Below are positions 3,871-41,055 of a DNA stretch of 44,904 nt, piece by piece. The DNA is taken from IMG/VR virus record IMGVR_UViG_3300020180_000033, positions 1 through 44,904 of that record; one strand, written 5' to 3'. This DNA comes from a virus. The translations under genes and the position numbers were made by a program. Under the pieces are notes generated by a model that saw nothing but the letters and a program-made list of their open reading frames with translations, had not been told where the DNA came from and did no database searches. How positions within the stretch are numbered: the stretch's first letter is position 1; each line of letters starts with the position of its first letter.

Positions 3871-4094
3871 TCGGATTTCCCGAACGCCTTCTGTTCCATT
3901 TCGAGCGCGGAGTACTGGTTGTAGATCAGCCGTCCGATTTCGTTTTGCTTCAGCACGACCTTGCAGGTCTTTACACCGGAAATGCACTCCGGACAGATTG
4001 CGCCCACGACGACTTCGCCTTGACGGATCACCAGACCATCGGTGATGCTGACGCCAGGCCCGAACTCACTCTCACAATTGTTGCATTTGCGCAT
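3867..4094 (-). CDS. Small zinc-ribbon-like protein (75 aa)
   Basis: Starts MRKCNNCESEFGPG and carries a second pair, CPECISG, about 30 residues later, giving two CxxC knuckles typical of a zinc ribbon. The rest is short and helical at the C-terminus (IGRLIYNQYSALEMEQKAF). Small zinc ribbons in phages often bind nucleic acid or act as adaptors of transcription proteins, but nothing here fixes the role. A TTG at 4130 would extend it through the terminator hairpin, so I chose ATG 4094 although no strong ribosome binding site precedes it. It is coupled to the next gene by an ATGA overlap. Confidence 0.65.
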   Translation of the reverse strand: MRKCNNCESEFGPGVSITDGLVIRQGEVVVGAICPECISGVKTCKVVLKQNEIGRLIYNQYSALEMEQKAFGKSE

Positions 4095-4118
4095 TTTGTG
4101 AATGTACCAAAAGAAGAA

Positions 4119-4144
4119 GGGTCCCTTCAATCAAGAAGGGACCC
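4119..4144 (-). terminator. Rho-independent terminator after ribonucleotide reductase
   Basis: Perfect 10-bp inverted repeat (GGGTCCCTTC / GAAGGGACCC) with a 6-nt loop. On the minus strand it is followed by TTCTTCTTTT. It lies 20 bp past the stop of the reductase gene. Confidence 0.85.
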
Positions 4145-4164
4145 CAAATCAATCGAGTTGTTCG

Positions 4165-6486
4165 CTAGAACTTGACTTCGCAAGCACCGCCGGCACAGGC
4201 CGCCTCGCCGGTGAGGTTCGTCCCGTCTTCCAACTCCAGGATCGCCGTGTAGTCGACAGGCTTGTAGTACGCGATGAGCTGGTTGTATCGCGCTTCATCC
4301 GCCTCGGTGACCACGGCTTCATTGGGAGCGAACGCGTAGTCCTTGTCACTCGTCGCGGCGATCAGGCTGACGCCTGTAAAGAACTCCCGGTTGTCCCAGA
4401 TGTAATCTGCAACCGCGTCCCATTCGTCCGGATGCACGTGAACCGTGTTGGACACGTTGTGCGTTAGTCCAGGAGAGACGCTCGTGTCCGCGGTGCCTGG
4501 AAGCACCCAGTTTTGTTGGGTGCTGCGTACCATGTCGAGGAACGTGAGCGCCGTCAGGTCCTCCTTGAGGACCGCACCGGGAGGAGCCTCGACAGGGAAC
4601 TCGATGACGAATTTCCCGTCGGGCTTCTTTACGCACATGTGCGGGTTGACCGCCTTGAACGCGAGGAAGACCGTTTCCATCTCGTCGGCAGTCACGCGTC
4701 GAATGTAGCGACGGGCGTGGTGCGCGTGATGCCCAGATCCAACGCAGCCCAGCTCGAGGGACGTGGTCCCTGACGGCTTGACGCAGGTGGTTCGCGCTGC
4801 GGGACGAATGCCGATGCGGGCAGCGTATTCGGCGTTCCACTGTTTTACCTTGAGCGCCATCTCGCGCTGCAACTCCGGGTCACACGAGATCTCGCTAGCG
4901 TCGAGCATTCCGGTCATGCCGATGCCGAGAAGCGCCTCACGCTCTGCGATGACCTCGCTCTGCCAGCCCAGGTACGCCATGTCCGTGTACGCCGCCTGCA
5001 GGGTTCCGATGATCGCGGCGGCCTTGGCGGCGACCTCGAAGTCGGCGGGCGACTTGAACATCGCCGCGTTGATCTCGCACAGGTTGCAGAACGCCCAGCC
5101 GGTGATGACGTCGCCCATCTTTACATCGGGAATCGACTTGCCTCGATCGGCACGCTGCGCGAGCAGTTCGATGAGCTTGCCGTCGACGACAATCTTGGGG
5201 TTGAGGCCGATCTCGGCACAGGGGTTTGTGCCGTGGTCGAAGTCGCTGCAGAAGTAGAAGCCCGGCTCGCCCCACTCCTTGGTCATCTGGATGATCCGCT
5301 TGAACTGTTTCTTCTTCACTTCGTCACGCTTGAGCATGACGCTGTTGTTCGCGTTCGAGCGCCACGGGTGGGTCTTCCACCAGGAGCCAGTCTTGGCGTT
5401 GACCATCTCGCTGTCGTCGAGCGAGAACAGGCAGATCATCGCGGAGCGTCGGATACCGCCGCTGAGCACAGCGTCAGCTGCGTGACACATGACATCGTGA
5501 CACTCGATGGGGCGGAGCTTTCGGCCCTGCGCTCCGTCGAGGATCTTGCGAACCTGCTCGAGGGACTCCTTGAGCCTGCGATGCCCGGGGGCGCGTCCTC
5601 CGCTGGTCTTGAGCGGCGTGCCCTTCTTGCGGATCAGCGCGTAGTTGAACTCGATGTTGTAGCCCTCGACGTAGCTCATCATGAGCGCGTAGAGCGCATC
5701 GGCCCAACCCTCGATCGAATCCGCGATGGTGTGGTGCACGACGTTGTCGACGTCGATGAACTTCAGCGGGGGCAGCTTGTCGACGTGCTCGAACTGCACG
5801 GAATAGCCAACGCCGGAGCCGCACAGGAGGAGGAACATCGCCTCCGCGAAAACACGAGGACGATCGATGAACGAAAAAGTGCAGTTGTAGATGCGGTTGT
5901 TGACTGCTTCAACGGCCGCGCCGCCGAACTGCATCGAACGCATCGACGGCAGCACCCGCTTCTCGAGCACCTGATCGAACGCCCAGCAGATGTCTGCGTC
6001 GAGGCCTACGACATGGGCGAACTTACGTCGATGCATCTCCCGGACTCGTACCACCGTCTCGTGGTACAGCTCGCGCCGCATCTCTGCTTGGATGTGGCGG
6101 GCGTACTTCGAGTGGTGGATGTACTCTGACACGGCAAGCGGGTCAGGCGTGTGGCGTTGCTGTCTGCGCTCCGCGTGCTTCTCCCGGTAAACGATGTACG
6201 CCCTCGCCACGGCGAAGTGGCGGAACTTCATCAGCGCGATTTCGACGGCGTCTTGGATCTGCTCGACGTCGGCCACTTCGGCGCTGAGGGTGTTGATCGC
6301 GAGTGCAACGACCTTGCGTACCTTCGCTTCGTCGACCGTGCCTTCCGCCTCTTCCCATGCTTTCCGGATAGCGCACTCAATCTTGTGTGAGTCGAACACC
6401 TGCAGCGTAGCCCCGTCACGCTTCCGGACCTGAAGAGGTTCCGCTGTTTCCTTGAATGCCGGGTGATTGAGCACGCTGATGTCCAT
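4165..6486 (-). CDS. nrdJ: Adenosylcobalamin-dependent (class II) ribonucleoside-triphosphate reductase
   Basis: Reduces ribonucleotides to deoxyribonucleotides for phage DNA synthesis. At 773 residues it matches the monomeric class II size. An ATP-cone occupies about residues 18-110 (VRKRDGATLQVF then helices), normally the allosteric activity switch. Catalytic features: C202 in RIYNCTFSF, C423 and E425 in NPCAEIGL, the cysteines of CNLCEIN, the GSGVGYSVQ segment, and a YIRRV motif typical of the monomeric class II group. The tail ends with C764 and C769 (CAGGAC), the pair that passes electrons to the active site. No class I small subunit or class III activase is present, in keeping with class II. 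The start ATG 6486 has TAGGAAAAG upstream and follows the resolvase gene after 11 bp, so the two are co-transcribed. No thioredoxin lies in the window, so reducing power probably comes from elsewhere. Class II assignment is from motif memory, not a search. Confidence 0.9.
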   Translation of the reverse strand: MDISVLNHPAFKETAEPLQVRKRDGATLQVFDSHKIECAIRKAWEEAEGTVDEAKVRKVVALAINTLSAEVADVEQIQDAVEIALMKFRHFAVARAYIVYREKHAERRQQRHTPDPLAVSEYIHHSKYARHIQAEMRRELYHETVVRVREMHRRKFAHVVGLDADICWAFDQVLEKRVLPSMRSMQFGGAAVEAVNNRIYNCTFSFIDRPRVFAEAMFLLLCGSGVGYSVQFEHVDKLPPLKFIDVDNVVHHTIADSIEGWADALYALMMSYVEGYNIEFNYALIRKKGTPLKTSGGRAPGHRRLKESLEQVRKILDGAQGRKLRPIECHDVMCHAADAVLSGGIRRSAMICLFSLDDSEMVNAKTGSWWKTHPWRSNANNSVMLKRDEVKKKQFKRIIQMTKEWGEPGFYFCSDFDHGTNPCAEIGLNPKIVVDGKLIELLAQRADRGKSIPDVKMGDVITGWAFCNLCEINAAMFKSPADFEVAAKAAAIIGTLQAAYTDMAYLGWQSEVIAEREALLGIGMTGMLDASEISCDPELQREMALKVKQWNAEYAARIGIRPAARTTCVKPSGTTSLELGCVGSGHHAHHARRYIRRVTADEMETVFLAFKAVNPHMCVKKPDGKFVIEFPVEAPPGAVLKEDLTALTFLDMVRSTQQNWVLPGTADTSVSPGLTHNVSNTVHVHPDEWDAVADYIWDNREFFTGVSLIAATSDKDYAFAPNEAVVTEADEARYNQLIAYYKPVDYTAILELEDGTNLTGEAACAGGACEVKF

Positions 6487-6497
6487 GGGGTCTTTTC

Positions 6498-7046
6498 CTA
6501 GATGGAGTTTTTAACGACGCGTCGGATACGGCGCGCGGGTTTCTTCGGCTTTGGAAAACGCAAGGAATGCAAAACCTCGAGTTGCGCTCGGTTAGGAGGC
6601 GCTAGCTCGAGGTGATAGCAACGGGCGATCTGCGACAGGAAAAACGCGTCCGCCTGGTTGTCGTCGGACGTGACAAAACCAGCCCGCTTGGCTGCCTCAA
6701 CCATGTCTTCTTTTTCGGCACTGGCGTTTCCCGTGGCGAATTTCTTGAGAGAGACCGGCGGCACGACGACGTATGGGACTTCGTTTTCGAACATGAGCAG
6801 GCGAAGCACCCCGCCTACTTCGCCTAGTTCGAAAACTCGGCCGACACTATTATAGGAGTAGCCCTCGACTGCTCCAAACAAGACACTGAGCCCGAGTAAA
6901 GGCGCCACGCGGCTCTTTACGTACGCAAGGCGTTCAACGTCTCGGCATTTCCCAGGGATCACCGTCTCATGGTGTTCTACCTGTCCGTTCGGGCGGACCC
7001 GGCACAAGCCGGTTGCGTTCAAGCTCTGGTCGATCCCCAAGTACAT
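6498..7046 (-). CDS. RuvC-like Holliday junction resolvase
   Basis: A 182-residue RNase H-fold nuclease. It opens with MYLGIDQSLNATGLC, where the aspartate of GIDQS is the first metal ligand. E (VEGYSY) follows, then SAEKEDM and a DDNQADAFFLSQIA segment giving the last acidic residues, the usual D...E...D-D order of RuvC. It resolves branched DNA during recombination or before packaging. The C-terminal end is very basic (KPKKPARRIRRVVK), fitting DNA binding. Start ATG 7046 has GAGG eight bases upstream; longer in-frame extensions are rejected for that reason. It leads the two-gene operon with the reductase. Its start codon lies in a CATG that is also an ATG on the plus strand. Confidence 0.85.
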   Translation of the reverse strand: MYLGIDQSLNATGLCRVRPNGQVEHHETVIPGKCRDVERLAYVKSRVAPLLGLSVLFGAVEGYSYNSVGRVFELGEVGGVLRLLMFENEVPYVVVPPVSLKKFATGNASAEKEDMVEAAKRAGFVTSDDNQADAFFLSQIARCYHLELAPPNRAQLEVLHSLRFPKPKKPARRIRRVVKNSI

Positions 7047-7062
7047 GAGCGAAACCTCGGTG

Positions 7063-7068
7063 TACCAT
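7063..7068 (+). promoter_or_regulatory. Candidate -10 box (TACCAT) for a leaderless gene
   Basis: TACCAT lies exactly six bases before ATG 7075, which lacks a ribosome binding site. This is the same geometry as at 12332, 13325 and 41073. No clear -35 element is visible. Confidence 0.4.
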
Positions 7069-7074
7069 GCGGCA

Positions 7075-7446
7075 ATGGCGGTTTCATTCAGTTTGCGACA
7101 AATCACGTCGGTTGTTACGGGACCTCTTTACCGCGTGAACAATACGGTTGACGCGGCCACCGACGCCTCCCTGATGATCTTCGTGTTCAAAACGACGACA
7201 CAAGAATTCAGTCACTACGCAACGGTGGCAGACATTGAAACCTACCCCGATACGTACGCACAGGCCGTCTCAGACGGCGCAGCGTTCTATCGGCTTGCTT
7301 CAGTTGTTCGAGATTGGGGAACCGTCGAGGAAATGGAAGCAGATGTCGCGATGACCCTGAGTCGCACGCAGTTTCTCGCGAACGAGCTGAACGCCGTGCA
7401 AGTGGGCGTTTCGTCCGATACAACCACCGTCATCGTACCGGAGTGA
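7075..7446 (+). CDS. Small phage structural protein (123 aa)
   Basis: Not recognised as a named family. It is 123 residues, acidic and soluble: a beta-rich N-terminal half (TSVVTGPLYRVNNT, LMIFVFKTT) and a helical C-terminal half, with no signal peptide. It is followed after 3 bp by a coiled-coil gene, and both precede a terminator hairpin, so they form a two-gene plus-strand unit. In tailed phages such pairs near tail genes are usually tail or virion components; here that is inference. An ATG at 7045 is also in frame. I prefer 7075 because a TACCAT box sits six bases before it, which would give a leaderless mRNA; neither start has a ribosome binding site. Confidence 0.6.
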   Translation: MAVSFSLRQITSVVTGPLYRVNNTVDAATDASLMIFVFKTTTQEFSHYATVADIETYPDTYAQAVSDGAAFYRLASVVRDWGTVEEMEADVAMTLSRTQFLANELNAVQVGVSSDTTTVIVPE

Positions 7447-7449
7447 TTC

Positions 7450-8445
7450 ATGGCTACCCTTGAACAAACACGTCACGTTGAACTGGTTTCGGGAACGCGT
7501 CAGAGATTCGTCGTAACCAGTACGATGACGGGAGCCATCATTCCAGGACAGCTTCCCCACTTGGGCGTGTTCGTGATGCGTATCATCACGCGAGATGACC
7601 CCCAGGACGATACTTTCCAGCGTGTCGCTCGAATTGCAGACCTGAGTGAATTGCCGCTAGGCCGCGATGAGGGTCTCGACAGCGATGATGGTGTCGATAT
7701 TGACTACCTCGCCAGTATCGTAGTTTTGAACTACGACACGCTCTCTGAAGCGAAGCTGGCCTATGTCGCTATCAAAGACCGCGTCAATGCGTTGGTCACC
7801 GACTGGGTTGACTACATGCTGAACTTCGATGCGCCGATCATCTCACCCGAGATCTTCACGTTGCCGGATGTTGATGATTCGCAATTCGAGGTTCTGGCGG
7901 CTACATACAAGATCGCTAAGCAGGACCGCTATCAAAAGAACTTGCTGAAGCTCGAGGCCGACGCTGTGCTGACGCGTGCGACCGCCGACTACAACTACAA
8001 ACGTGCTCGTGAAGTCGAGCTGGATTCGATGGTGGCCAAGGGCATCATCGTCGATGCGGACATGAGCGCAGCGTCGAGCTTTCACGCCGCGTTGTTGTCG
8101 GAGGGAACGACCTTCCTGGCGGCAGCCGCGTGTGCAGCCGCGGGTGACAAGGCAGATTTCCAAGACGCGCTTAACACAGGGACAAACGAGACGAGCATCC
8201 TCGCTGCGTACGATGTTGACGTTGCGACCCTTACGGGACTCATCAACGGTTACGACGCGGCGCGCGTCGTAGAAGTGGCCGCCGCCAGCGCCGCGTTGGC
8301 GACCGCGCAGGCGGACCAGATCGCCAAGGCGCAGGCCTACACGACGGCGCAGACAACGGAGACCACGGCCCTTGCCGCCGTCATCGCCGTGTGTCCCGAC
8401 TTCGAGAAGAACTCGATCCCGTTTGTCGACGACACTGAGGTGTAG
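7450..8445 (+). CDS. Probable virion/tail-associated protein with C-terminal coiled coil
   Basis: 331 residues, no recognised enzyme motif. The first 110 residues are mixed alpha/beta. Residues about 110-180 are long charged helices. From about 200 the protein is Ala-rich and helical, with an Ala/Gln/Thr-rich segment (about 270-310) that reads as a coiled coil. Such Ala-rich helical bundles occur in phage tail, fiber-adaptor and head-tail proteins. It starts at ATG 7450 after CGGAGTGATTC, a normal ribosome binding site, directly behind the 123-residue gene. The next feature is a strong hairpin. Alternative: an internal virion protein. The role is inferred from composition and neighbours. Confidence 0.6.
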   Translation: MATLEQTRHVELVSGTRQRFVVTSTMTGAIIPGQLPHLGVFVMRIITRDDPQDDTFQRVARIADLSELPLGRDEGLDSDDGVDIDYLASIVVLNYDTLSEAKLAYVAIKDRVNALVTDWVDYMLNFDAPIISPEIFTLPDVDDSQFEVLAATYKIAKQDRYQKNLLKLEADAVLTRATADYNYKRAREVELDSMVAKGIIVDADMSAASSFHAALLSEGTTFLAAAACAAAGDKADFQDALNTGTNETSILAAYDVDVATLTGLINGYDAARVVEVAAASAALATAQADQIAKAQAYTTAQTTETTALAAVIAVCPDFEKNSIPFVDDTEV

Positions 8446-8457
8446 AAGCTAAAAAAA

Positions 8458-8489
8458 GAGGGCGCCGGGATGTTGTTCCCGGCGCCCTC
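8458..8489 (-). terminator. Strong terminator between convergent genes
   Basis: A 13-bp GC-rich perfect stem (GAGGGCGCCGGGA / TCCCGGCGCCCTC) with a 6-nt loop. A run of seven A on the plus strand becomes a U-tract for minus-strand transcripts, ending the gene at 8493. The hairpin may also stop plus-strand transcripts, but lacks a U-tract there. Confidence 0.9.
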
Positions 8490-8492
8490 AGA

Positions 8493-9020
8493 CTAAGTGC
8501 GCATACGAATGCTCGCGGTGAGCAAGTCAACGTAAGCCCGCACACGTCGGTGCGCGGGTGCTCGCAGAGTTCGGATCTTGCCGCCTAGCCGACGGCTTGC
8601 GTGCGCGAAAGCGTTGCACCTTGCGGTGTAGCATTTGCGACACCACTGCCTTGGTCTACGCGGAACAGGTTCCCGTGCCGCGCGTTCCACAACACCACAA
8701 GGGCAAATCACTATGCGTGTCTGGGGTCGAAGCGACGGCTCTGTATTCAATGTCCTGCATCGCTTACTGCAGTAGTCGCGGACGGCATCGCGCTGGGCAC
8801 ACCCGAACCCGACCACCAAACGCTCTTCCTTTCCGCAGTAATGACAGATCAACAATCTCAGTCGTGGTGGGTTGGAAAGAAACTCCAGGTGGGTGATGTT
8901 GCAGTATGCGTTGCAGAAGTTACTACTTCGTTTGTAATGCATGAACCGCATCAACGGTTTACCGCACCACAGACAATTACGTCCGTTAGGTGTTTTTCTT
9001 GCCGGTCCTCGTTTTTGCAT
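8493..9020 (-). CDS. Cysteine-rich multi-zinc-finger protein (175 aa)
   Basis: A very basic protein with three successive cysteine clusters. Cluster 1 is CLWCGKPL with FCNAYC. Cluster 2 is CHYCGKEE with DYCSKRC. Cluster 3 is CPCG with CRKCYTARC. Each reads as a treble-clef or zinc-ribbon pair of knuckles. The C-terminal 45 residues are Arg-rich (GGKIRTLRAPAHRRVRAY). This predicts nucleic-acid binding, possibly an HNH-like fold, but no HNH catalytic triad can be seen. The start ATG 9020 overlaps the end of the upstream 66-residue gene by 35 bp; an upstream in-frame extension to 9050 is possible. A strong terminator follows. Function unknown. Confidence 0.65.
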   Translation of the reverse strand: MQKRGPARKTPNGRNCLWCGKPLMRFMHYKRSSNFCNAYCNITHLEFLSNPPRLRLLICHYCGKEERLVVGFGCAQRDAVRDYCSKRCRTLNTEPSLRPQTRIVICPCGVVERAAREPVPRRPRQWCRKCYTARCNAFAHASRRLGGKIRTLRAPAHRRVRAYVDLLTASIRMRT

Positions 9021-9186
9021 TTTGATGCCTGAACTCTTCCATGTAAGCAATCTCCAGCCAGCCTAGATACGCAATTGCTTGTGCTTCGGCGGGGGACAGG
9101 CTTCCTCCGTATACCTCTTTCTGCCATTTCGCGATTTCGGCGCGGATCTGGTTTTCAGTTCGAGGCTTGGTTGACTTCTTCTTCAT
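8986..9186 (-). CDS. Small basic hypothetical protein (66 aa)
   Basis: A 66-residue lysine- and arginine-rich, mostly helical protein. It begins MKKKSTKPRTENQI and has a central helix around LSPAEAQAIAYLGWLEIAYME. No family recognised. Start ATG 9186 follows GGTGAAGG with good spacing and overlaps the stop of the preceding small gene by 4 bp, so it is translationally coupled. Its 3' end overlaps the zinc-finger gene, suggesting one polycistronic message from 10495 down to 8493. Confidence 0.6.
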   Translation of the reverse strand: MKKKSTKPRTENQIRAEIAKWQKEVYGGSLSPAEAQAIAYLGWLEIAYMEEFRHQNAKTRTGKKNT

Positions 9187-9320
9187 TCGACCTTCACCCC
9201 CTCGAGCCGAGACAGTACATCGGTGAGGCGGACCTCTTTGTCGATGCGCAGCATGTCGTTGATGAATTGGAGGTGCTTCTTTTTCCCTGCGAAGCGCTTC
9301 CGCATCTCTGCGACGTTCAC
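9183..9320 (-). CDS. Very small hypothetical protein (45 aa, GTG start)
   Basis: A 45-residue basic helical peptide (core MRKRFAGKKKHLQFIND, then RLTDVLSRLEGVKVE). The GTG at 9320 overlaps the stop of the DUF932-like gene (GTGA) and has GAAGG seven bases upstream, so I chose it over the internal ATG at 9305. Position in a tight run of coupled genes is the main evidence that it is real. No function can be assigned. Confidence 0.5.
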   Translation of the reverse strand: MNVAEMRKRFAGKKKHLQFINDMLRIDKEVRLTDVLSRLEGVKVE

Positions 9321-10495
9321 GCAGTTGCCTTCTCTTTCTCCTTCCGCTTCTTGCTTTCGGTCATGTACTCGCCTGCCGCGATCTCCAGCTCCATGCGCCG
9401 CTCCGGCGTTTCGGCGGACTTCGCGAACCACGAGATCGCGTTGGCCAGGCGTGCCCGCGTGGTCCCGACCGGCAGCTCTTCGACACCGCCGTTCATGAAG
9501 ATGTCCTGCACCTTTTCGACCTCACCCTTGAGCAGGCCGAGCTTGGGCAGCTCCTGCCACGCCTGCTTCGGGTCGATGCGCTCCTCGAGCGCCTTGCCAA
9601 TCAGGCCGACGGTCTGGTTGATCTTGCCAGGGCCGAGGGCGCCTTTGACGATGTCCTTGACCATCGACACCATCGTCTTGGTGTCGAGGTTGTACGTGTC
9701 CTGGCTGAACTCGATGTTGTCGTCGAGCCGCTTTCCGAGGTGGACCTGACGGAGCGCCTCATCGAGCGTCGCGTAGTTGGTGCAGACGATACGCATCATG
9801 CCGATGCGGAGCGACAGCGCGCCCTTGCCGAAGTCGGAGTTGGCGAGCTGTGCGTAGAACGCGATGACCTCCTCGGTGCCCGCCTTCTTCGAAGGCTGAA
9901 ACACCATCGGCAGGATGGCCTTCACGGCCCAGCGGAGATCGCCGCCCATGCCCTCGATCGGCACGGCACCGATCTCCTTGCAGGTCTTGGCGAACGCCTC
10001 GATCACCGGAATCGAGTCCATGCGGCGGAACGAATCCGACAGAACACCGCGGACCTGATCGTCGACCGAGCGCACGAGGAACCGCTGGTTCTCCTCCTTG
10101 GCGTAAATGGTGGTCAAGTTTTCGATCAGCAGCTCGCGGCCGTAGGGTCGCGTTGGATTTCCGTTGTCGTCCTTCTCGAGAAGGCGGTTGAGGTAGGTCT
10201 GGGGAACGCCGGCCCGGTCACAGACCTGGTTGAGCGCGTGCTTGTGGAGCCCTTCGCGGAAGTGGCCCTTCGCCTTGCGGTCCTTGGTTCCCATGAGGAT
10301 GGTGTCGTCGTCGATGGCGAACATCATTGCCTGCGACTGGACGATTCGATCTCGGGGGACCTCGCTGCTGACCTTCTCGATGACCGTCATCGCCGAGCGC
10401 TGGGATTTTTGGATGGTCTCCTCGAGCTGGGCTTGGAATCGCTTGACGGTCTGGCCGACCGCTACGTCGTAGTCTCGTGCGTCGTGGTGAATCAT
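9317..10495 (-). CDS. DUF932-like phage/plasmid protein (392 aa)
   Basis: Resembles the DUF932 / TIGR03299 family of phage- and plasmid-borne proteins of unknown function. The recognisable part is the middle, around FLVRSVDDQVRGVLSDSFRRMD, where the family has a conserved segment on altering or reading out a 'SDRYRR'-type motif. About 100 helical residues then precede a charged helical C-terminus (ESKKRKEKEKATA). Family members are often large, early-expressed accessory proteins on mobile elements. The first 60 residues here are helical and polar. Start ATG 10495 has a purine-rich AAAGAAAGA upstream. It heads a chain of coupled small genes. The family call is from motif memory and moderate in certainty; biochemical role unknown. 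Confidence 0.55.
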   Translation of the reverse strand: MIHHDARDYDVAVGQTVKRFQAQLEETIQKSQRSAMTVIEKVSSEVPRDRIVQSQAMMFAIDDDTILMGTKDRKAKGHFREGLHKHALNQVCDRAGVPQTYLNRLLEKDDNGNPTRPYGRELLIENLTTIYAKEENQRFLVRSVDDQVRGVLSDSFRRMDSIPVIEAFAKTCKEIGAVPIEGMGGDLRWAVKAILPMVFQPSKKAGTEEVIAFYAQLANSDFGKGALSLRIGMMRIVCTNYATLDEALRQVHLGKRLDDNIEFSQDTYNLDTKTMVSMVKDIVKGALGPGKINQTVGLIGKALEERIDPKQAWQELPKLGLLKGEVEKVQDIFMNGGVEELPVGTTRARLANAISWFAKSAETPERRMELEIAAGEYMTESKKRKEKEKATA

Positions 10496-10528
10496 TTGAT
10501 CTTTCTTTCTGTTTTCAACTAGCGAATG

Positions 10529-10545
10529 CGCGTTTATTAAACGCG
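10529..10545. repeat. 17-bp palindrome upstream of the DUF932-like gene
   Basis: CGCGTTTA-T-TAAACGCG is a perfect inverted repeat with a one-base centre, about 35 bp upstream of ATG 10495. It has no U-tract on the minus strand, so it looks more like an operator for a dimeric regulator than a terminator. The 72-bp gap holds nothing else. Confidence 0.5.
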
Positions 10546-10567
10546 GGGTTTTGCTTGAGCGCAGCCT

Positions 10568-10876
10568 TCAGCCAAGATACTGGTCGACGTCTGCCTGCGT
10601 GACCGTGTTCGACTCGACTATCCGCGTACCTACGTACCCATCGTTGGCGGCTGTGTGAAACGCACCAAGCTTTTCTACGAACCCAGGCTCTTGCACAAGT
10701 CCTTGGTTAACGACATGCCCTATGTCTTTAGGCAGTGTTACGTTGAAGTGGTGAATAGCGTGTCTCGCCTCCTCGAGGTCCATCGCAGCAAACAGCGCGA
10801 CGAACCGTTTGAGTTGTGAAGGACGCGAGCTTTTGGCTTTCTTGATTTCCTCGATCAAGGTTTCGAAGGGGGTCAT
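10568..10876 (-). CDS. Hypothetical helical protein (102 aa)
   Basis: 102 residues, mainly helical, no cysteine cluster and no membrane segment. It has a basic N-terminal third (EEIKKAKSSRPSQLKRF) and a C-terminal TQADVDQYLG. No family recognised. Start ATG 10876 overlaps the stop of the HExxH/VWA gene (ATGA), so the two are coupled. This may mean it works with that protein, though this is inference from position only. Confidence 0.6.
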   Translation of the reverse strand: MTPFETLIEEIKKAKSSRPSQLKRFVALFAAMDLEEARHAIHHFNVTLPKDIGHVVNQGLVQEPGFVEKLGAFHTAANDGYVGTRIVESNTVTQADVDQYLG

Positions 10877-12282
10877 GGCGCCTCATGTGCATACCGCCAC
10901 ATGGCGTTCTGGTTGGCGTCACAGACGATGATCTCTCCGTAACCGCGGATGTAGTCCACCGCGTGCTGCTTCGTGACGAGCCAGATCACCGGCACATCCG
11001 ACGGAAACCGGTTGTCCGGATGAACCCCCGGGGCGTACCCGTCGGTGTAAACGATGACCAGATCCGGTGCCGTTTCATCGTTGCCCAAGTACTTCCCCAT
11101 GTAGCGGAAGTACTCGTTGAAGTCCGTACCGCCGCGTCCGTGTACTTCCTTCGGCAGCTCCTCCCCGCTCCGGAACACTTCGTCGAAGTGCGTCGTGCAG
11201 TCGCCTTGCATGTAGCGAACCTCGAGATCCTCGTCCGTCTTGAGCATGTTGCTCAACTCGCCGCGAGCGATGGCGAGGCTCTCGCTGTCCATCGACCCCG
11301 AGGTGTCGACGTAGAAAAAGACGCGGTACATCGGGTCCCGGATGATGCCGAGCGCAGGGAGGATCGTACCGTCCTCCTCCGACATAGCCGTCAGCATTCG
11401 ATTCGGCCGTGAGATTCCTCGGTCTGGCTTCGACCGCTTGGTGGACTTGATGCGCGTGGTGAGGATCTCCCACCACGGGATGACCGGGTCTTCGAGGTAC
11501 TCTTCGAGCCATTCAGCGATGTTCGCCGGTACCGTGCCTCGACCCTTCTGCTGGTCCTTGACCGCCGTCTTGAGCAGCGACTTGAGCTGTGTCCGCAGCT
11601 GGTGCGCGAGGCCTTGGGCTTCCTCGGGGAGCATCTCTCGCTTCTCGCCGTCAGGGCTCTCATCAATCCACTTGGCGTGGGTGCCGCCGAGCTGGTGAAG
11701 CCAATCCTTTAGAATCTGATCAACTTCCTCCGGCGTCAGGAGCTTGACGCGTTTCATCAACTCCCTTTGATAGAAGTCATACGACTTGCCTGGAGGTAGA
11801 TCGTACTTCTCCGGTAGCACGAGCCCCATCCGCTCCAAGCGTTCTGGTGTCATCGCAGCGCGGACCTCCGGAGGCAGATCCTCGATCTGCATCGCGCGGA
11901 ACTCAGCTTCCGCCTTGTCGAAGAACTCCGTCTTGCGCAACAGGTCATTGTCCGCGCAGTCCATCGCGATGTTGTAGACAAGCTCTGCCTTGGTTCGCTC
12001 GTCCGCGTTGGTGCCGATGGCGGCCAAGACCTCGAGGAACCTTGGGATGTGATCAAGCACCACGTGCATGATCTCGTGTTCGACGGTGAGAACGCCGAGG
12101 GCCATGCTTGCCCGTTTGACGAACACGGGGTCGTAGAACAGCTTGATGCGCCCGCCGCGGATGCCGACGCCCATGGTTCCGCAGCCCTTTTCCTCCACGC
12201 GCTGCAGGCTGTTGGCGACCCGTCCGAAAAAGTTCTTCTGGGTCAAAAGATAAAGGAAGAATTCCGAAAGGGTGACGTTCAT
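10873..12282 (-). CDS. VWA-domain protein with N-terminal HExxH metallopeptidase-like domain
   Basis: 469 residues in two parts. The N-terminal part carries HEIMH at residues 69-73, a zinc HExxH motif, followed by an Asp and a His (LDH). The C-terminal part holds a von Willebrand factor A fold with a MIDAS metal site, DTSGSMD, with D326, S328 and S330, then a later acidic loop (VIVYTDGYAPG). This architecture matches the DUF2201-like VWA metallopeptidase proteins that pair with MoxR-type AAA+ ATPases, and such an ATPase is at 14047-15294 on the same strand. The pair probably acts as a chaperone or remodelling machine on an unknown substrate. Start ATG 12282 has AAGGA eight bases upstream; a start 24 bp further up is rejected. 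Whether the protease centre is active is unknown. Confidence 0.8.
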   Translation of the reverse strand: MNVTLSEFFLYLLTQKNFFGRVANSLQRVEEKGCGTMGVGIRGGRIKLFYDPVFVKRASMALGVLTVEHEIMHVVLDHIPRFLEVLAAIGTNADERTKAELVYNIAMDCADNDLLRKTEFFDKAEAEFRAMQIEDLPPEVRAAMTPERLERMGLVLPEKYDLPPGKSYDFYQRELMKRVKLLTPEEVDQILKDWLHQLGGTHAKWIDESPDGEKREMLPEEAQGLAHQLRTQLKSLLKTAVKDQQKGRGTVPANIAEWLEEYLEDPVIPWWEILTTRIKSTKRSKPDRGISRPNRMLTAMSEEDGTILPALGIIRDPMYRVFFYVDTSGSMDSESLAIARGELSNMLKTDEDLEVRYMQGDCTTHFDEVFRSGEELPKEVHGRGGTDFNEYFRYMGKYLGNDETAPDLVIVYTDGYAPGVHPDNRFPSDVPVIWLVTKQHAVDYIRGYGEIIVCDANQNAMWRYAHEAP

Positions 12283-12303
12283 GTCTGATTTTCCTTGTGA
12301 ATT

Positions 12304-12328
12304 CACGCACCGCGAAAGGCGTTGCGTG
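12304..12328. repeat. Inverted repeat in divergent promoter region
   Basis: CACGCA at 12304-12309 and TGCGTG at 12323-12328 form a perfect 6-bp inverted repeat. It lies between the divergent VWA gene and the 12344 gene, next to the TATACT box, so it could be an operator. Confidence 0.3.
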
Positions 12329-12331
12329 GCC

Positions 12332-12337
12332 TATACT
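12332..12337 (+). promoter_or_regulatory. Candidate -10 box (TATACT) for a leaderless gene
   Basis: TATACT is preceded by GGCC (GGCCTATACT) and lies six bases before ATG 12344, with no ribosome binding site. Transcription would start at the A of ATG. No -35 match is visible. Confidence 0.5.
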
Positions 12338-12343
12338 TAGGGC

Positions 12344-13327
12344 ATGGTCGACCAGTACCGGGACCCTACCTTGGCTGTTCTCGTTCAACTCGTGGCGGGC
12401 AGGCCGAAGCTTGCCGCCGCCGTGGGGGATGTCGACATCCAACCTGACGAATTGGATGCATTGCCGTCTTCGGCCTTCGCATGGCCTGAAAAACGTGCGT
12501 TCCCGTTGCACACGCGCGAGCATGCGATGCTGTCGCGGGTTTACCGTGAAAATTCGCCGAGCGTTCCAGGCCATGTCGACGCCGCCCTCAAGGAGGCGTG
12601 CGACCTCTACGGAATCGACGAAGACCTGTTCGCCCGCGTCAAACAGGCGGCCCCGGTAGACGACCCCGAGAACTACCTCATCCCCGACCGCAAGCTGATC
12701 CCCGTGCGTAATGCGGCTGAGGTCAAGCTTGCCGAAGAGAAGGTTGTCTCGGGGTACACCAAACTCGCGGTGGAAACTCGCGCGCTGGTGTGCACGCGCC
12801 TCGTCGAGAAGGCAGCCTACTTCGGTGTGACGCTCAAGCCGCTTACCCACAAGCTCGCAGGCTTCACAGTAACGTCGACAAAGATCCTGAAGGATTGGCT
12901 TGGCGCCAGGACCGAAGCTGCCCCGGAGCAGTACAAGGAAGCTTTCCAAAAGCTGGCGGAAGCCGTCGGAACACTGCCCGCCGAGATCCGCGACCGCAAC
13001 ACTCAGATCAAGCTGGCGGAAGTCATCGACGCGCTGGACAAGAAGGCGGGCCTGGTCCGGCACTACGACCGCAAACTCCCTGACCCGATGCTCTCGGTCT
13101 TCAACACCGATAAGGTCGCAGGCGAGGGCGTGAACCTCGGTAACAAGTTCGTATCGATGACCCGCCTGGCGTCGTATCCCGCGTCGTTCTTTGGCGATGT
13201 CATCGGCGACGACCTCGTACGAGAAGCTTCCGACGGGCATGGTGGAATGGACCCCTACAAGCTGGCGGCCATTCTCGAGACGCTTCCGCTGGACATGAAG
13301 AACGTGCTCGCGCAGCAAATGCGCTAG
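12344..13327 (+). CDS. Hypothetical phage protein (327 aa)
   Basis: Not recognised. It is 327 residues, mostly helical. Its N-terminal third has a conserved-looking segment around HTREHAMLSRVYRE, its middle is a charged helical bundle, and its C-terminus has few cysteines. There is no membrane segment, nucleotide-binding motif or zinc cluster. It is transcribed away from the VWA gene and followed after 9 bp by a second unknown plus-strand gene. Plus-strand genes in this genome are mainly virion or late genes, so a structural or assembly role is plausible but unproven. ATG 12344 has no ribosome binding site; the TATACT box six bases upstream points to a leaderless mRNA. Confidence 0.6.
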   Translation: MVDQYRDPTLAVLVQLVAGRPKLAAAVGDVDIQPDELDALPSSAFAWPEKRAFPLHTREHAMLSRVYRENSPSVPGHVDAALKEACDLYGIDEDLFARVKQAAPVDDPENYLIPDRKLIPVRNAAEVKLAEEKVVSGYTKLAVETRALVCTRLVEKAAYFGVTLKPLTHKLAGFTVTSTKILKDWLGARTEAAPEQYKEAFQKLAEAVGTLPAEIRDRNTQIKLAEVIDALDKKAGLVRHYDRKLPDPMLSVFNTDKVAGEGVNLGNKFVSMTRLASYPASFFGDVIGDDLVREASDGHGGMDPYKLAAILETLPLDMKNVLAQQMR

Positions 13328-34050: not shown

Positions 34051-35823
34051 ATGTCCCAAAACGATCCCACCCTCGGCGACTTGTACGCACCGTCGAGTTC
34101 CCACGGCTCGCCGTTGTTCGACTTCCTCACGGCGTTCGCGCCTCGGAAGCTCAAGGACCTCTTCAAGCTGTGCGAGTACCTGTACTTCAACAGCTCGCAA
34201 ATCTACGCGGCGCTGCAGAAGTTCTGTACGTATCCTGTCACTGACATCACCTACGACACGACCAACGAAGCACTGAAAACAAAATACAAGAACCTCCACG
34301 ACAAGACGATCAAAACCAAGAGACGCCTGATTCAGGCGGCCACGGACAAGTTCGTCTACGGAAACGCGTTCTTCTCGATCTACATGCCGTTCGTGCGTTT
34401 CCTGCAGTGCAACCACTGCAAGCAACTGACGAACATCGCGGCGGTGGACTACAAATTCAAGATCAAGAAACTTGAATTTACGTACAGGTGCGCCGCTTGC
34501 GACAAACAGGCCACCGGGGACGTACAGGACCGCAAGGTCACCCGTCCTGACAAGGTGGCCATCATTCGGTGGGACCCGAAGCTGATGGACATCGACTACA
34601 ACCCCATCACACAACACAGCGAGTACTACTACACGATCCCGAAGGAATTGAAGGACCGCGTCGTCAAGGGAAACCACCACGTCATCAACACGATGCCGAT
34701 GGAATTCCTCAAAGCGATCAAGGAGGACAAGATCTTCAAGTTCTCTGAAGGTCAGATCTTCCATATGAAGATGGATGCGCCTGCAGGCATCGAAGCCCAG
34801 TGGGGCTTCCCGCCGCTGGCATCGACGATCAAATTGTTCTTCTACGCAGCCGTGCTGCGTAAGGCGAACGAAGCCATCGCGCTCGACTACATCGTCCCTC
34901 TCCGTATCGTCTCGCCCAAGGTCGCGTCCAGCAACGCAGACCCGTTGCTCACGATCTCGCTCGATAAGTGGGCGAATGAGATGAAGCACAGCGTCAAGCG
35001 TTGGCGGCGCGACCCTCTCCACATCATGTGGTCGCCGATTCCTGCAGAGGTCACACACCTAGGAGGGCAGGCGCGTGCACTGATGACCTTGGGTGAAGTG
35101 CAAGCGGCTGAGGACAACATCATCGCGGCGCTGGGTTTGCCGAAGGAGTTCATCTACGGCGGCTTCTCCGCGATGGGCTCAGGCATCCAGTTGCGTGTTC
35201 TTGAGAACCAGCTGATGCACCAAACCAATGACCTCAACGATTTGCTGCAGTGGATCACTGACAAGTTCGCGAAGCTGCTCGGCTGGCCCTCGGTCAACGT
35301 GGAATTGGCGCCGTTCAAGTTCATCGACGACGTGCAGCAGAAGACCCTGCTGTTGCAGCTCCACATGTCCAATCCCCAAGACCCCATGCTGTCGAAGGGG
35401 ACGTTGGGCGAAGCGTTCGATGTCGATCCTGCTGAAGAGCGGAAACGCAAACATCAAGAAGCGTTGGACGACATGAGGGCACAGCAAGAACTGCAACAAG
35501 AAATGCAGAAACTGCAAAATACGCTCGCGCAGCAAATACAGGCCCAACAAGCAATGGGTCAACAGGGGTTGCAGTACGACCAACAACAAATCATCGCGCA
35601 AGCGGACACCATGGTAGAGCAGATGATGGGCATGGACCCTGGAACACGGCGCTCACAAATGCATGCACTCGAGGTCGAGGACTTCGTCATGTTCTCCGTG
35701 GTCTCGCGCCGCATGGAAAACATGCAGACGGCGCAAAACCACGAAGCAATCACGGCGGCGCGGCAGGGGGGAGACCCAAGCGGAGGTGGTAGCGGCGGCG
35801 GTCCTCCTGGGATGATGGGTTGA
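34051..35823 (+). CDS. Probable portal protein with zinc-ribbon insert
   Basis: 590 residues. N-terminal half: a helical start (PLFDFLTAFAPRKLKDLFKL) and a YGNAFFSIYMPF region, with a zinc ribbon (CNHCKQ then CAACDKQ) inserted at about residues 125-155. The middle contains the AALGLPKEFIYGG signature and an RVLENQ helix, as in portal proteins of tailed phages with long genomes. The C-terminal 120 residues are Gln-rich and helical (the barrel), ending in a Gly/Pro-rich tail. The portal forms the dodecameric DNA gate of the head and docks the terminase, whose own sequence also has a zinc ribbon. Start ATG 34051 has GAGG upstream. It heads the long plus-strand cluster containing the RNA polymerase genes. 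Portal assignment rests on motif and length only. Confidence 0.72.
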   Translation: MSQNDPTLGDLYAPSSSHGSPLFDFLTAFAPRKLKDLFKLCEYLYFNSSQIYAALQKFCTYPVTDITYDTTNEALKTKYKNLHDKTIKTKRRLIQAATDKFVYGNAFFSIYMPFVRFLQCNHCKQLTNIAAVDYKFKIKKLEFTYRCAACDKQATGDVQDRKVTRPDKVAIIRWDPKLMDIDYNPITQHSEYYYTIPKELKDRVVKGNHHVINTMPMEFLKAIKEDKIFKFSEGQIFHMKMDAPAGIEAQWGFPPLASTIKLFFYAAVLRKANEAIALDYIVPLRIVSPKVASSNADPLLTISLDKWANEMKHSVKRWRRDPLHIMWSPIPAEVTHLGGQARALMTLGEVQAAEDNIIAALGLPKEFIYGGFSAMGSGIQLRVLENQLMHQTNDLNDLLQWITDKFAKLLGWPSVNVELAPFKFIDDVQQKTLLLQLHMSNPQDPMLSKGTLGEAFDVDPAEERKRKHQEALDDMRAQQELQQEMQKLQNTLAQQIQAQQAMGQQGLQYDQQQIIAQADTMVEQMMGMDPGTRRSQMHALEVEDFVMFSVVSRRMENMQTAQNHEAITAARQGGDPSGGGSGGGPPGMMG

Positions 35824-36264: not shown

Positions 36265-39200
36265 ATGGCAAACACGCCCCTCACGCCTGTAATGGTCGAC
36301 TCGTTTACGCGACGGGTGGAGATTCGTCGCAAGGCGATCGAAGGGCTGATGCAATCCTTCCCGCTCAAGGCCCGGTCGTACACAGTCGAGTTGTTGAATC
36401 CACGAGTCGAGGCACAGGAGTTCTCGTCCCGAGAACAGAAGGCCGCGATTCTCGAGGGCCGGTCGTTGAACGAGCGCGTCCGCGGCGACCTGATCGTACG
36501 TGACGCGCAAGGCAACATTACGAGCGACGCCAAGGGGTTCACCCTTCTCCACTTGCCGTACTTCACGCCGCGTCACACGTTCATCGTCGACGGCACTGAA
36601 TACAGTGTTTCCAATCAGATCCGCACGAAGCCTGGCGTATACACCCGACGGCGCGGCAACGAGGACCTCGAAGCCTCGTTCAACCTGTCGAAAGGCGGCA
36701 ACTTCCGTGTCCTCATGGAACCAGAGAAGGGGCACCTCTTCGTCCAGCCAACGCACTCGACGACACGGATCCCGTTGTACCCCGTCCTACGTGCGCTCGG
36801 CGTGCCGCACCAGGACATCGCAGGGAACTGGGGCAATGAAGTAGCTACGCTGAATCGCGACGCATTCAAGAACCCCGAAAAGCACGTCGACAAGTTCTAC
36901 GCGAACTTCATCCATCCCGCCCAACAGACGCACACGTCGCTCGATGAGAAGGTCCGTGCGCTTCACGGATATCTCGATACGACCGCGATGGACCCGCACG
37001 TCAACAAGGTCACGCTGGGCCATGGTTACGAAAAGGCGTCACCTCAAGCAATCCTGGCCGCCTCGAAGAAGCTTCTCGACGTCCACCGTGCTGCGGACGA
37101 CACCGACGATCGAGACTCTCTAGCGTTTAAGACGTTTCACTCTGTCGACGACTTCATCAAGGAAAGGCTCGCGCTCGATGCGCGGTCGCAACGGATGAAG
37201 ATGGGCATCAAACTGGAAGCCCACAAGGGAGACATCCGAAAGGCGCTACCGTCTGCGCCATTCACACGAACCATCAATTCGTTCCTGACGGGATCGTCGC
37301 TGTCCGCAGTGCCGACGCAGATCAACCCAATGGAACTTATCGATCACGCGGTTCGAGTCACCTCGCTCGGCGAAGGCGCCATCTCGTCCGAACGCGCGAT
37401 TCCGCTGGAGGCGCGCAATCTGCACGCGACTCACTTTGGGATCATGGATCCGGTAAGAACCCCGGAGAGCTTCAAAGCGGGCATCGACATTCGCGCAGCT
37501 CTGTCTACCCGCCGGGACACGCAAGGCAACCTCTTCTCGACTTTGCGCAACCTCAAGACAGGGCGCACCGAGCACGTCAAGGCCGAGGACATTATGCACT
37601 CGGTCGTGGCGTTCCCTCACGAGGACGTGCGACCAGGCAAGATGGTGGACGCGCTGACTCGAGGTCACGTGCAGCGTGTTCCCGCTTCGCAGGTGACGCA
37701 CCAAGTCGTGCACGTGTCTGACCTCTACGGACCGACGACGAACCTCCTGCCGTTCCTCAACGGCATGCAGGGCAACCGCTCGTTGATGGCATCCAAGCAC
37801 CAGAGCCAGGCGCTGTCCCTGATTCATCGGGAGGCGCCGCTCGTGCAGGTTCAGTCGTGGAAGCCGGGCTCCTCCGTCGAACAGGAGATGAACAAGCTCA
37901 TCGTCCCGACGTCACCGGTGGCAGGGATCGTGTCGCACATCGACGACGACTACATCCACATCACGCCGGACAACCACAAAGCGGCGTCGAGCCCCACTGC
38001 CGTCGTCGTGAAGGGGAACCCACGGTTCATCGAGGGGAACGCAGAAGCCACGCGCTTCTACGATGAGATCAAGAAACATCTTGAATCTGTCGGCTACTCC
38101 GTAACGTTCGACGCGGGAGAGCCCTACACACAACCCGTCAACGCCGACCTTTGGGTTGGACATAGCCGTGGGGCAGACCGTCTTCGTTTCGCGCCCAACA
38201 CAACTCGAACCGTCGTACTGGGGAGCCCTCACCCGGATGCAATCAATCACCCGGACGATTCAGTTAACGCCCATTTGACGAATACGCCTCCGTCTATCGC
38301 TCACTTCACGTTGACGCCAGAAATGAAAAACGCGTTGTCAACGATGCCGAGCAAAGGCGCGTCCGCTCCTTGGGAAGACCCCGGCGACGTCTATTCCGAC
38401 TTCGTCAAGGTCGGCGACAACGGCAACATCAAGCTCCACTACGACCAAAACTTCCCGCTAGCGGCCAAGACGTACCTGCACAACGACATCAAGGTGAAAG
38501 CGGGTGACCGTGTTCGCGTGGGTCAGGTTCTCGCAACGTCCAACTTCTCGAAGGACGACACTCTAGCGCTCGGCACCAACCTGAGCGTTGCGTACATGCC
38601 GTACCGCGGCCTCAACACGAACGACGGCATCGTCGTGTCGCAGGGAGCCGCAAACCGTCTCGTCTCCGAGCACATGTACAAGCATGTCATGATCTTGACC
38701 GGAGGCGTGGAAGCGAAGCGCGAGAAGCACCGCGCGTACTTCGGTAACAAGTACACCGCAAAACAGTACGATAACCTCGACGAGGACGGTGTCGTCCGTC
38801 CCGGGGCGATCGTACAGTCGCACGACCCGCTCATTGTGGCCGTTCGTCCGAATCAAGCCACAGGCAACGCAGTGCTATTGGGCCGCTTGTCCAAGTCGTT
38901 GGTCAAGCCGTTCTCCGAAGAAGTCGAGCTGTGGGACCACGATCGACCAGGCACGGTCATCGACGTGGCCAAGACGGGCGACCGCGTCACAGTCACCGTG
39001 AAGACAGAGGAGCACCTCAACATCGGCGACAAGCTCTCCGGACGCTACGGCAACAAGGGCGTCATCGCGAAGATTGTCCCTGACCACCAGATGATTCAGG
39101 ACGAGAAGGGAAAACCCATCGATCTGCTCTTTACCTCTGCCGGCATCATCTCGCGTATCAACCCGGCACAGGTCATCGAGGCGTCTCTCGGCAAGGTCGC

Positions 39201-41055
39201 AGCGCACACAGGTAAACCCATCGCGGTCGAGAACTTCGCACCGCACGACAACGTGCAGTACGCGAAGGACATGTTGAAGAAGCACGGACTGTCCGACAAG
39301 GAGACCGTCTTCGATCCGGTCACCAATCGGTCAATCCCCAAGGTGTTCGTCGGCAAGAGCTACATCCTCAAATTGTTCAAGACCACGGACTCGAACTGGT
39401 CAAGTCACGGAGCGGACCGGTACGACTTCAACCAGCAGCCATCGCGCGGCGGTGACGATGGCGCCAAGGCCATCGGCAAGATGGAATTTGACGGTCTCGT
39501 CGCACACAACGCGCGCAACGTGTTGAAGGAAGCTGCGTCTCTCAAGAGCCAGAAGAACGACGAATTCTGGCGCGCGATTCAGCTTGGCCTTCCGACGCCG
39601 ACACCGCAGACCCCGTTCGCCTACAACAAGTTCCTCACGATGCTCGAGGGCGCAGGTGTCAAAGTCTCGAAGAAGGGGTCGCGCCTTTCGCTCGGGCCCC
39701 TCACGGACAACGACATCGCGAAGATGTCGTCGGGAGCGCTCAAAGAGCCGCACAAGATGATTCGCGCTAAGGACCTGCACCCTGAAACAGGAGGCATGTT
39801 TGATCCCGCGACCACAGGAGGGATGAGCGGAACGAAGTGGTCGCACGTCGAGCTGCACGAACCGCTCGTCAATCCCGTGTTCGAGGAGCCTGTGCGGCGC
39901 CTCCTGGGGCTAACCCAGAAAGAGTTCACGGACCTGCACAGCAGGCACGGCGGCGCATGGTTTCGACAGGAGCTGGGACGTATCGACGTCGACTTCCGTT
40001 TGAAAGAGTTGCGTGACCGAAGCCGAACGCTCAAAGGCACTGCCCTTGATGACGTTGTCAAACAGATCAAATACCTCAATGCGTTGCAGGCTCAGAAGCT
40101 GTCGCCAGACTTGGCTTACGTGCTCACCAAGATTCCGGTGACGCCCCCGATCATCAGACCCATCCTCCCCCTCAAGGACGGCCGCCTGCAGGTCGGCGAC
40201 GCCAACCTCCTCTACCGCGACGCCTTCCTCGCCAACGACAAACTTCACGAGGTAAAGGGTGTGTTGCCCGCGAATGAACTGCATGCGCCGCGCAAGCATC
40301 TCTACGACGCAATCAGTGCCGTATTCGGTGTGGGTGATCCAGTGAGCCCTACCACGGAGAAACGCGAGGCCAAGGGCTACCTCGCGATGATCACGGGTAC
40401 ACGCCCGGGAAGCGGATTCTTCCAGGGCAAGTTGATGAAGCGACAACAAGACATCTCAGGACGCGCGACCATCGCACCTGACCCGACGTTGTCGATGGAC
40501 GAGATTGGCGTCCCGGAAGACATGCTATGGGGCATGTTCGGAAAGTTTGTTATCGGGCGTTTGGTTAAGCGCGGCTACACGGCTCTGGACGCACAGAAGA
40601 TGGTGGAGGAGAAAGCGCCGCTCGCCCGACAGGAACTGCTTATCGAGGCGAAGGAACGTCCGGTCATGGTGAACCGTGCACCATCGCTCCATCGCTTCAA
40701 CATCATCGGAGCCTTCCCCCGCATCACGACAGGCAAGACGTTGATGCTGAATCCCTTCGCTGAAAAGGGAACGAACGCAGACTACGATGGCGATGCAATG
40801 CAGATCCACGCGCCTGTGACCCCCGGAGCGGTCGAAGACGTCAAGCGGATGACGTTGTCGCACCTGCTATTCAATGACCGGCGCCCCGGCCAGTTGAACG
40901 TGGCACCAGACATGGAAGCCATCATCGGGCTCCACCGCGCCACAGGGGCCAAGTCCGACAAGGTCACAAAGCACTTCGCTTCGAAGGAGACCGCGTTGGC
41001 CGCGTACCACCGCGGGGAAATTTCCCTGGCGGACACGATCGAGATTGCCAAGTAA
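36265..41055 (+). CDS. rpoBC-like: RNA polymerase beta subunit fused to N-terminal part of beta'
   Basis: 1596 residues, cotranslating two catalytic subunits. Beta part (1 to about 1085): TFIVDGTEYSVSNQ; HATHFGIMDPVRTPES (387-401); RSLMASKHQSQA; LSVAYMPYRGLNTNDGIVVS; GDKLSGRYGNKG with active-site lysines K923 and K931; and the beta C-terminal DDGAKAIGKMEFDGL. An insert at about 577-700 carries GHSRG (632-636). Beta' part (from about 1165): GGMFDPATTGGMSG and SHVELHEPLVNPVF without the first zinc-binding domain; RQQDISGRATI; RPVMVNRAPSLHR; NADYDGDAM with catalytic D1506, D1508 and D1510. It stops soon after, at about residue 600 in E. coli numbering. The rest of beta' is at 41820. Start ATG 36265 has GGGAG. 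No alpha or omega is visible. Confidence 0.95.
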   Translation: MANTPLTPVMVDSFTRRVEIRRKAIEGLMQSFPLKARSYTVELLNPRVEAQEFSSREQKAAILEGRSLNERVRGDLIVRDAQGNITSDAKGFTLLHLPYFTPRHTFIVDGTEYSVSNQIRTKPGVYTRRRGNEDLEASFNLSKGGNFRVLMEPEKGHLFVQPTHSTTRIPLYPVLRALGVPHQDIAGNWGNEVATLNRDAFKNPEKHVDKFYANFIHPAQQTHTSLDEKVRALHGYLDTTAMDPHVNKVTLGHGYEKASPQAILAASKKLLDVHRAADDTDDRDSLAFKTFHSVDDFIKERLALDARSQRMKMGIKLEAHKGDIRKALPSAPFTRTINSFLTGSSLSAVPTQINPMELIDHAVRVTSLGEGAISSERAIPLEARNLHATHFGIMDPVRTPESFKAGIDIRAALSTRRDTQGNLFSTLRNLKTGRTEHVKAEDIMHSVVAFPHEDVRPGKMVDALTRGHVQRVPASQVTHQVVHVSDLYGPTTNLLPFLNGMQGNRSLMASKHQSQALSLIHREAPLVQVQSWKPGSSVEQEMNKLIVPTSPVAGIVSHIDDDYIHITPDNHKAASSPTAVVVKGNPRFIEGNAEATRFYDEIKKHLESVGYSVTFDAGEPYTQPVNADLWVGHSRGADRLRFAPNTTRTVVLGSPHPDAINHPDDSVNAHLTNTPPSIAHFTLTPEMKNALSTMPSKGASAPWEDPGDVYSDFVKVGDNGNIKLHYDQNFPLAAKTYLHNDIKVKAGDRVRVGQVLATSNFSKDDTLALGTNLSVAYMPYRGLNTNDGIVVSQGAANRLVSEHMYKHVMILTGGVEAKREKHRAYFGNKYTAKQYDNLDEDGVVRPGAIVQSHDPLIVAVRPNQATGNAVLLGRLSKSLVKPFSEEVELWDHDRPGTVIDVAKTGDRVTVTVKTEEHLNIGDKLSGRYGNKGVIAKIVPDHQMIQDEKGKPIDLLFTSAGIISRINPAQVIEASLGKVAAHTGKPIAVENFAPHDNVQYAKDMLKKHGLSDKETVFDPVTNRSIPKVFVGKSYILKLFKTTDSNWSSHGADRYDFNQQPSRGGDDGAKAIGKMEFDGLVAHNARNVLKEAASLKSQKNDEFWRAIQLGLPTPTPQTPFAYNKFLTMLEGAGVKVSKKGSRLSLGPLTDNDIAKMSSGALKEPHKMIRAKDLHPETGGMFDPATTGGMSGTKWSHVELHEPLVNPVFEEPVRRLLGLTQKEFTDLHSRHGGAWFRQELGRIDVDFRLKELRDRSRTLKGTALDDVVKQIKYLNALQAQKLSPDLAYVLTKIPVTPPIIRPILPLKDGRLQVGDANLLYRDAFLANDKLHEVKGVLPANELHAPRKHLYDAISAVFGVGDPVSPTTEKREAKGYLAMITGTRPGSGFFQGKLMKRQQDISGRATIAPDPTLSMDEIGVPEDMLWGMFGKFVIGRLVKRGYTALDAQKMVEEKAPLARQELLIEAKERPVMVNRAPSLHRFNIIGAFPRITTGKTLMLNPFAEKGTNADYDGDAMQIHAPVTPGAVEDVKRMTLSHLLFNDRRPGQLNVAPDMEAIIGLHRATGAKSDKVTKHFASKETALAAYHRGEISLADTIEIAK

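Follow-up and report, generated by a model that had tools for sequence, protein, structure and literature searches.

Why should the β-subunit of a phage RNA polymerase (RNAP) be interrupted by a segment carrying GHSRG, and is that segment an enzyme, a docking module or a working part of the polymerase? The question arises from an IMG/VR virus record (IMGVR_UViG_3300020180_000033, positions 1-44,904; 44.9 kb), the whole of which was analyzed and is referred to here as the window.

The polymerase gene and its inserted domain

The polymerase is encoded in two parts downstream of a probable portal gene:

34051-35823, plus strand: probable portal protein, two genes upstream of β (gene order as in Salmonella phage Arash)
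36265-41055, plus strand: fused RNA polymerase β and N-terminal part of β′, 1596 aa (Pfam, Arash gp206 match, model)
41820-43616, plus strand: C-terminal part of β′, separate ORF, 598 aa (phrog_3015 RNA polymerase subunit, E 7e-11; phrog_25354, E 4e-40)

The 36265-41055 frame encodes β followed by the N-terminal part of β′ and stops after NADYDGDA. It matches Rpb2_2, Rpb2_3, Rpb2_6, Rpb1_1 and Rpb1_2 in Pfam, with the Rpb2_6 match beginning only at residue 754, and it aligns with Arash gp206 at 35% identity across 91%. The order portal (gp204), gp205, RNAP (gp206) in Arash is the order found around 34051-35823; a profile search with this ORF gave no direct portal match. The small ORFs around the β′ C-terminal part (41085-41420, 41420-41812, 43616-44167 and 44360-44902) share an N-terminal pattern, AYxxGxxxALxRFGxKEA(A), and a similar pattern follows the RNAP gene in loci L072 and L083; it is possibly a capsid-targeting leader with a K-x-A motif at its end.

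Residues 577-700 split β between ...DDDYIHITPD and KLHYDQNFPLAAKT... and are a separate inserted domain of this 1596-residue polymerase, as the preliminary description had proposed with coordinates that are right to a few bases and with correct positions for GHSRG (632-636) and VVLGSPH. The domain itself spans about 37996-38346, or 37978-38364 with the short motifs that bracket it:

37996-38346, plus strand: inserted hydrolase-like domain, β residues 578-694 (phrog_30942, absence in relatives, AlphaFold2, VIA-align)

The segment is missing from Arash gp206 and from Vibrio phage D69, and in most of the 80 IMG/VR β relatives collected by a β alignment search residues 566 and 729 are joined by a linker of about 9-49 amino acids. 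The insert recurs unchanged in two further IMG/VR records (L001/L052, 95 kb; L002/L051, 14.7 kb), which makes an artefact of a single metagenome assembly unlikely. While a Pfam search with the insert matched nothing up to E 1, the phage family phrog_30942 was matched at E 3e-15, covering positions 3-124 of the 156 in the profile, and by this sequence measure the insert is a member of that family, which was already present in PHROGs with no assigned function. This match, together with the invariance of the residues described below, rules out a chance GxSxG motif.

Alignment to chain C of 7l7b places the insertion point in a short loop of cellular β, after the strand aligned to DEIIIKRED and before LLKFKRSNSGTC. 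The model of β residues 331-1095 has a canonical core (Z of 37.8 to a solved cyanobacterial β), and the stretches flanking the insert are of low confidence and are read as tethers; the insert itself was poorly modelled in the joint model of β and insert owing to alignment depth, and its fold was therefore taken from a model of the isolated domain. The segment could have been an extension of a normal β domain, the outcome that the preliminary description had named as refuting its proposal, and this is ruled out by the canonical surroundings, the relatives lacking the segment and the short loop in cellular β. Nor is the site a natural split of phage β, the C-terminal β chain of AR9 (7s00_C) beginning about 95 residues upstream of it. 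An intein is likewise unsupported for an insert of about 120 residues with a phrog_30942 match. Elsewhere in the β/β′ relatives, large insertions (about 1-1.6 kb) close to window residues 400, 925 and 1510 (beside NADYDGD) are probably inteins (carriers: L058, L060, L064, L066, L067, L094-L099, L104, L106, L107 and L111); locus L048 has a similar large insertion that starts with Cys after NADFDGD.

Fold and candidate catalytic residues

The residues on which an enzymatic function would depend are as follows:

38158-38172, plus strand: GHSRG, residues 632-636, predicted nucleophile elbow, with S634 at 38164-38166 (model, family conservation)
38257-38259, plus strand: D665, candidate acid partner (28/29 in alignment A3)
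38302-38304, plus strand: H680, candidate base partner (29/29 in alignment A3)

The VVLGSPH stretch begins at residue 650, and the two candidate partners lie within HPDD (662-665) and IAHF (678-681). All residues invariant in phrog_30942 (G-N-P, HS(R/K)G, Asp and His) are present in the insert (alignments A2 and A3). Across the 29 sequences of A3, His633, Ser634 and His680 are found in every member and Asp665, Arg635 and Arg639 in 28; the lone exception at Asp665 is L048, where an Asp two residues off may be misaligned. The alignment thus supplies conserved candidates for the Asp and His partners of S634 that the preliminary description had left to be looked for, and their order along the chain, Ser-Asp-His, is that of α/β hydrolases.

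AlphaFold2 modelled the isolated domain from the 29-sequence alignment with a pLDDT of 92.2 and a pTM of 0.86. The chain runs strand, helix, strand, strand-Ser-helix, strand and then short helices. In the model GHSRG takes the nucleophile-elbow shape earlier read from the letters, with the Ser (model residue 62) as the first residue of a helix (62-70) that follows a strand (57-61); the first Gly of the GxSxG elbow is Ala in several family members. A second look with VIA-align returned α/β hydrolases in all of the first ten rows, among them cutinases (Z of 8.6, 8.2 and 8.1, the best with an rmsd of 3.3 and 117 aligned), Bacillus LipA (7.7), esterases, PETase and a thioesterase, with RBBP9 following at 7.3. 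Receiver and other flavodoxin-like folds score only a small margin below the α/β hydrolases (Z of 7.0-7.3).

The central sheet of α/β hydrolases has eight strands, and minimal members have about five to six, whereas the model has four (of at least three residues) and so falls short of the strand count of that fold. Foldseek alone gave no match to the domain model better than E 0.01, comparison with PDB sequences found none that is related, and hhalign against Ser_hydrolase (PF06821) members gave a weak 8.5% probability with the nucleophile region alone aligned. Structure prediction and fold search support the hydrolase idea in part, through the strand-Ser-helix elbow and the head of the VIA-align list. 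Since the sheet has too few strands and no kinship was detected at the sequence level, we call the insert hydrolase-like, with putative activity, and do not assign it to the superfamily.

Carriers of the domain and occupants of the loop

A tblastn search of phage records found stand-alone homologues at 32-48% identity (PhiPA3 gp373, 201phi2-1 gp429, Psa21 (Psa21_236), Viktualia, RVTF4, D6 and FLC9 (gp115)), and a family alignment search widened the set to 31 IMG/VR loci and three in bacterial MAGs; no homologue was found in plasmids. In L025, L029 and L030 the domain lies N-terminal to a second domain judged by eye to be acetyltransferase-like (GNAT), in L018 and L019 it forms part of an ORF of more than 3300 residues with ART-PolyVal, GNAT, cREC_REC and ParB-like matches, and in L031 it shares an 865-residue ORF with DUF192. 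L048, a proteobacterial MAG contig, has one open frame (3826-7923) upstream of β′ in which the hydrolase-like domain comes after InPase and HAD and which also includes a ParB-like region; such domains can therefore be carried by β′ as well. The closest relative of the insert (58-60%) belongs to another protein, in the phage contig L017, where it is flanked by two KTAA motifs and adjoins a segment that is InPase-like by eye; the same contig also has genes for a prohead protease of the S78 type, for a capsid-type protein and for this RNAP type without an insert. The gene beside the carrier protein (L017 4058-5317) shows by eye a pattern resembling 2H phosphoesterases, flanked by HKTAA and TKHAG. 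The domain is mobile: it stands alone in jumbo phages, is a module of polyvalent-type proteins and is inserted in β. Several effector-type domains in one polypeptide, a mark of polyvalent proteins, are found in L018, L048 and L076, whereas the window protein joins RNAP to one effector-type domain.

The same site in β holds other domains in the relatives. GNAT acetyltransferases occupy it in L053 and L127 (Pfam E of 1e-8 and 7e-10), and InPase (PF18823), the commonest occupant, in L071-L074, L077, L078, L090, L099 and L110 (E of 1e-20 to 3e-33 in the members scanned); L076 has a ParB-like segment (by eye, unmatched in Pfam) followed by InPase (E 3e-31). On a β tree from which the insert columns were excluded, the insert labels change five times, GNAT being gained twice at separate supported places, and the nearest relatives of the window, L054 and L055, have no insert; a second tree of 79 rows agrees with the first. 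These changes imply that enzyme domains of different kinds entered one loop on at least four separate occasions, which makes it a hot spot for polyvalent-type enzyme domains in this phage clade. The InPase of L099 (9740-10219) looks more like the InPase-like segment of L017 than like the InPases of its own clade, which may reflect the exchange of a cassette at this β site.

Short motifs of the form K-x-[AGS]-[ASE] lie at the two ends of the insert:

37978-37989, plus strand: left bracket KAAS, residues 572-575, possible processing site
38353-38364, plus strand: right bracket KGAS, residues 697-700, possible processing site

The motif lies near both ends of the insert in each of the 13 sequences that carry one, compared with a mean of 0.30 and a maximum of 3/13 when the inserts were shuffled 2000 times, although 10 of the 13 come from one clade and the independent observations number about four or five. 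A single copy of the motif, in many cases KTAA, KTGA or KHAS, is present in the linker of insert-less members of the same clade, and the linker of distant Arash-like members is mostly without one. In L018, KTAA is found 9 times (0.075 expected) and separates the domains of a giant polyvalent-like protein (2494-12396, an open frame that runs for at least 3301 aa, and for 3855 aa in the contig). The nine copies use nine different codon spellings, so KTAA appears to be kept as protein and not as DNA, and a DNA-level recombination site there is unsupported. By itself the motif is a weak signal, the rest of the window β having four copies, as many as chance would give; we accordingly infer processing at the brackets rather than assert it, and K-x-[AGS]-[ASE] could be ordinary linker composition. 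An S78-type prohead protease was found only in L017, the capsid-type protein beside it has no clear K-x-A-A cleavage site, and a search for a Gp23 capsid found none.

A proposed cargo in a polymerase loop and its known counterparts

The account that we favor, and consider reasonably probable, is that a mobile minimal serine-hydrolase-like domain rides as cargo in a permissive loop of RNAP β. The loop has taken up this domain in the window lineage, and GNAT (twice), InPase or a ParB-like segment plus InPase in relatives. The domain may act on a small ester, thioester or peptide; the K-x-A-A brackets would be protease sites at which it is excised during head maturation, and polymerase and domain would then enter the host together. 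Were the brackets uncut, the same reading would have the domain stay tethered to the polymerase. The results suggest that, in the manner of a polyprotein, the RNAP gene carries exchangeable effectors, which may be excised at the brackets. A bolder form, in which β is a polyprotein throughout a large-phage clade and its K-x-A-A-marked loop takes interchangeable effectors (the minimal hydrolase, GNAT, InPase or a ParB-like domain) that are packaged with the polymerase, cut free in the head and injected, is conceivable but doubtful; the location of the RNAP gene near the probable portal gives the packaging idea a gene context.

The domain need not be a catalyst. A degenerate α/β fold that binds a virion or host protein, its Ser, His and Asp kept for structure, would account for a sheet of only four strands in which the canonical last strands for acid and base are missing, and strong conservation of Arg635 and Arg639, close to the Ser, and of positions occupied by Y, T and P would be expected of a specific binding surface. 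We nevertheless judge such docking unlikely, since the nucleophile-acid-base order is kept, the His is invariant in 29 sequences from PhiPA3 to the window, and GNAT and InPase, which occupy this β site in relatives, are families of enzymes. It is very unlikely that the insert is instead a Rossmann-like enzyme of the SLOG/YAcAr or nucleoside deoxyribosyltransferase type, binding the phosphate of a nucleotide or other ligand through RGADR and the conserved Arg: Pfam has no match for it, the Asp of RGAD is Gly, Ala, Ser or another residue in many members, the His-Ser pair is invariant and VIA-align ranks α/β hydrolases first. These points outweigh the listing by Foldseek of the CMP hydrolase MilB (prob 0.84, TMq 0.47) and, at low rank, of viral nucleoside deoxyribosyltransferases, as well as the RGADRL of the insert, which we take to resemble the SLOG glycine motif.

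The insert might also remain on a working polymerase and serve transcription, in the way that InPase has been proposed to clear pyrophosphate (PMC5512222). InPase is the most frequent domain at the site and removal of PPi would help a polymerase, but neither GNAT nor the hydrolase-like domain has an obvious part in nucleotide addition, the two-sided brackets suggest separable units, and most relatives carry no insert; a role of this kind seems improbable to us.

A narrow literature search found no description of a multisubunit RNAP subunit that serves to carry exchangeable enzyme domains of the polyvalent type, and the RNAP loop as a site for such domains and the bracket motif appear undescribed. 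On the cargo reading, the β loop is a concrete place for seeking new phage effectors, the bracket motif is a testable candidate for effector release, and a testable function is gained for an uncharacterised protein family of jumbo phages that form a nucleus, PhiPA3 among them.

The phrog_30942 proteins of these phages (PhiPA3 gp373, 201phi2-1 gp429, Psa21_236 and FLC9 gp115) are 31-39% identical to the window domain over nearly all of its length and have the same invariant residues, but they are stand-alone proteins of 127-156 residues, whereas the window domain lies inside RNAP β. With fungal cutinases, Bacillus LipA and RBBP9/YdeN the domain has in common the strand-Ser-helix elbow, (G/A)HSxG and the order Ser-Asp-His; it differs from these minimal α/β hydrolases in its 120 residues, four strands and two conserved Arg beside the Ser, and no sequence-profile relationship to them was detected.

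The polyvalent proteins of phages and conjugative elements have the same partner domains (InPase, GNAT and ART-PolyVal). InPase, GNAT, ART and N4-type virion RNAP modules were described in them by Iyer et al. (2017), who argued for injection and whose main text mentions no hydrolase (PMC5512222). Unlike these proteins, the window carrier is a multisubunit β/β′ RNAP with its domain in one internal loop. SPN3US packages a multisubunit virion RNAP in its head and ejects it, and its head proteins are cleaved at A-x-E (PMC5694885), a motif that counts against the reading of K-x-A-A as a cleavage site. This phiKZ-like virion RNAP is likewise a phage multisubunit enzyme with β and β′ split or rearranged; in contrast, the window RNAP has β fused to the N-terminal part of β′ and carries the insert.
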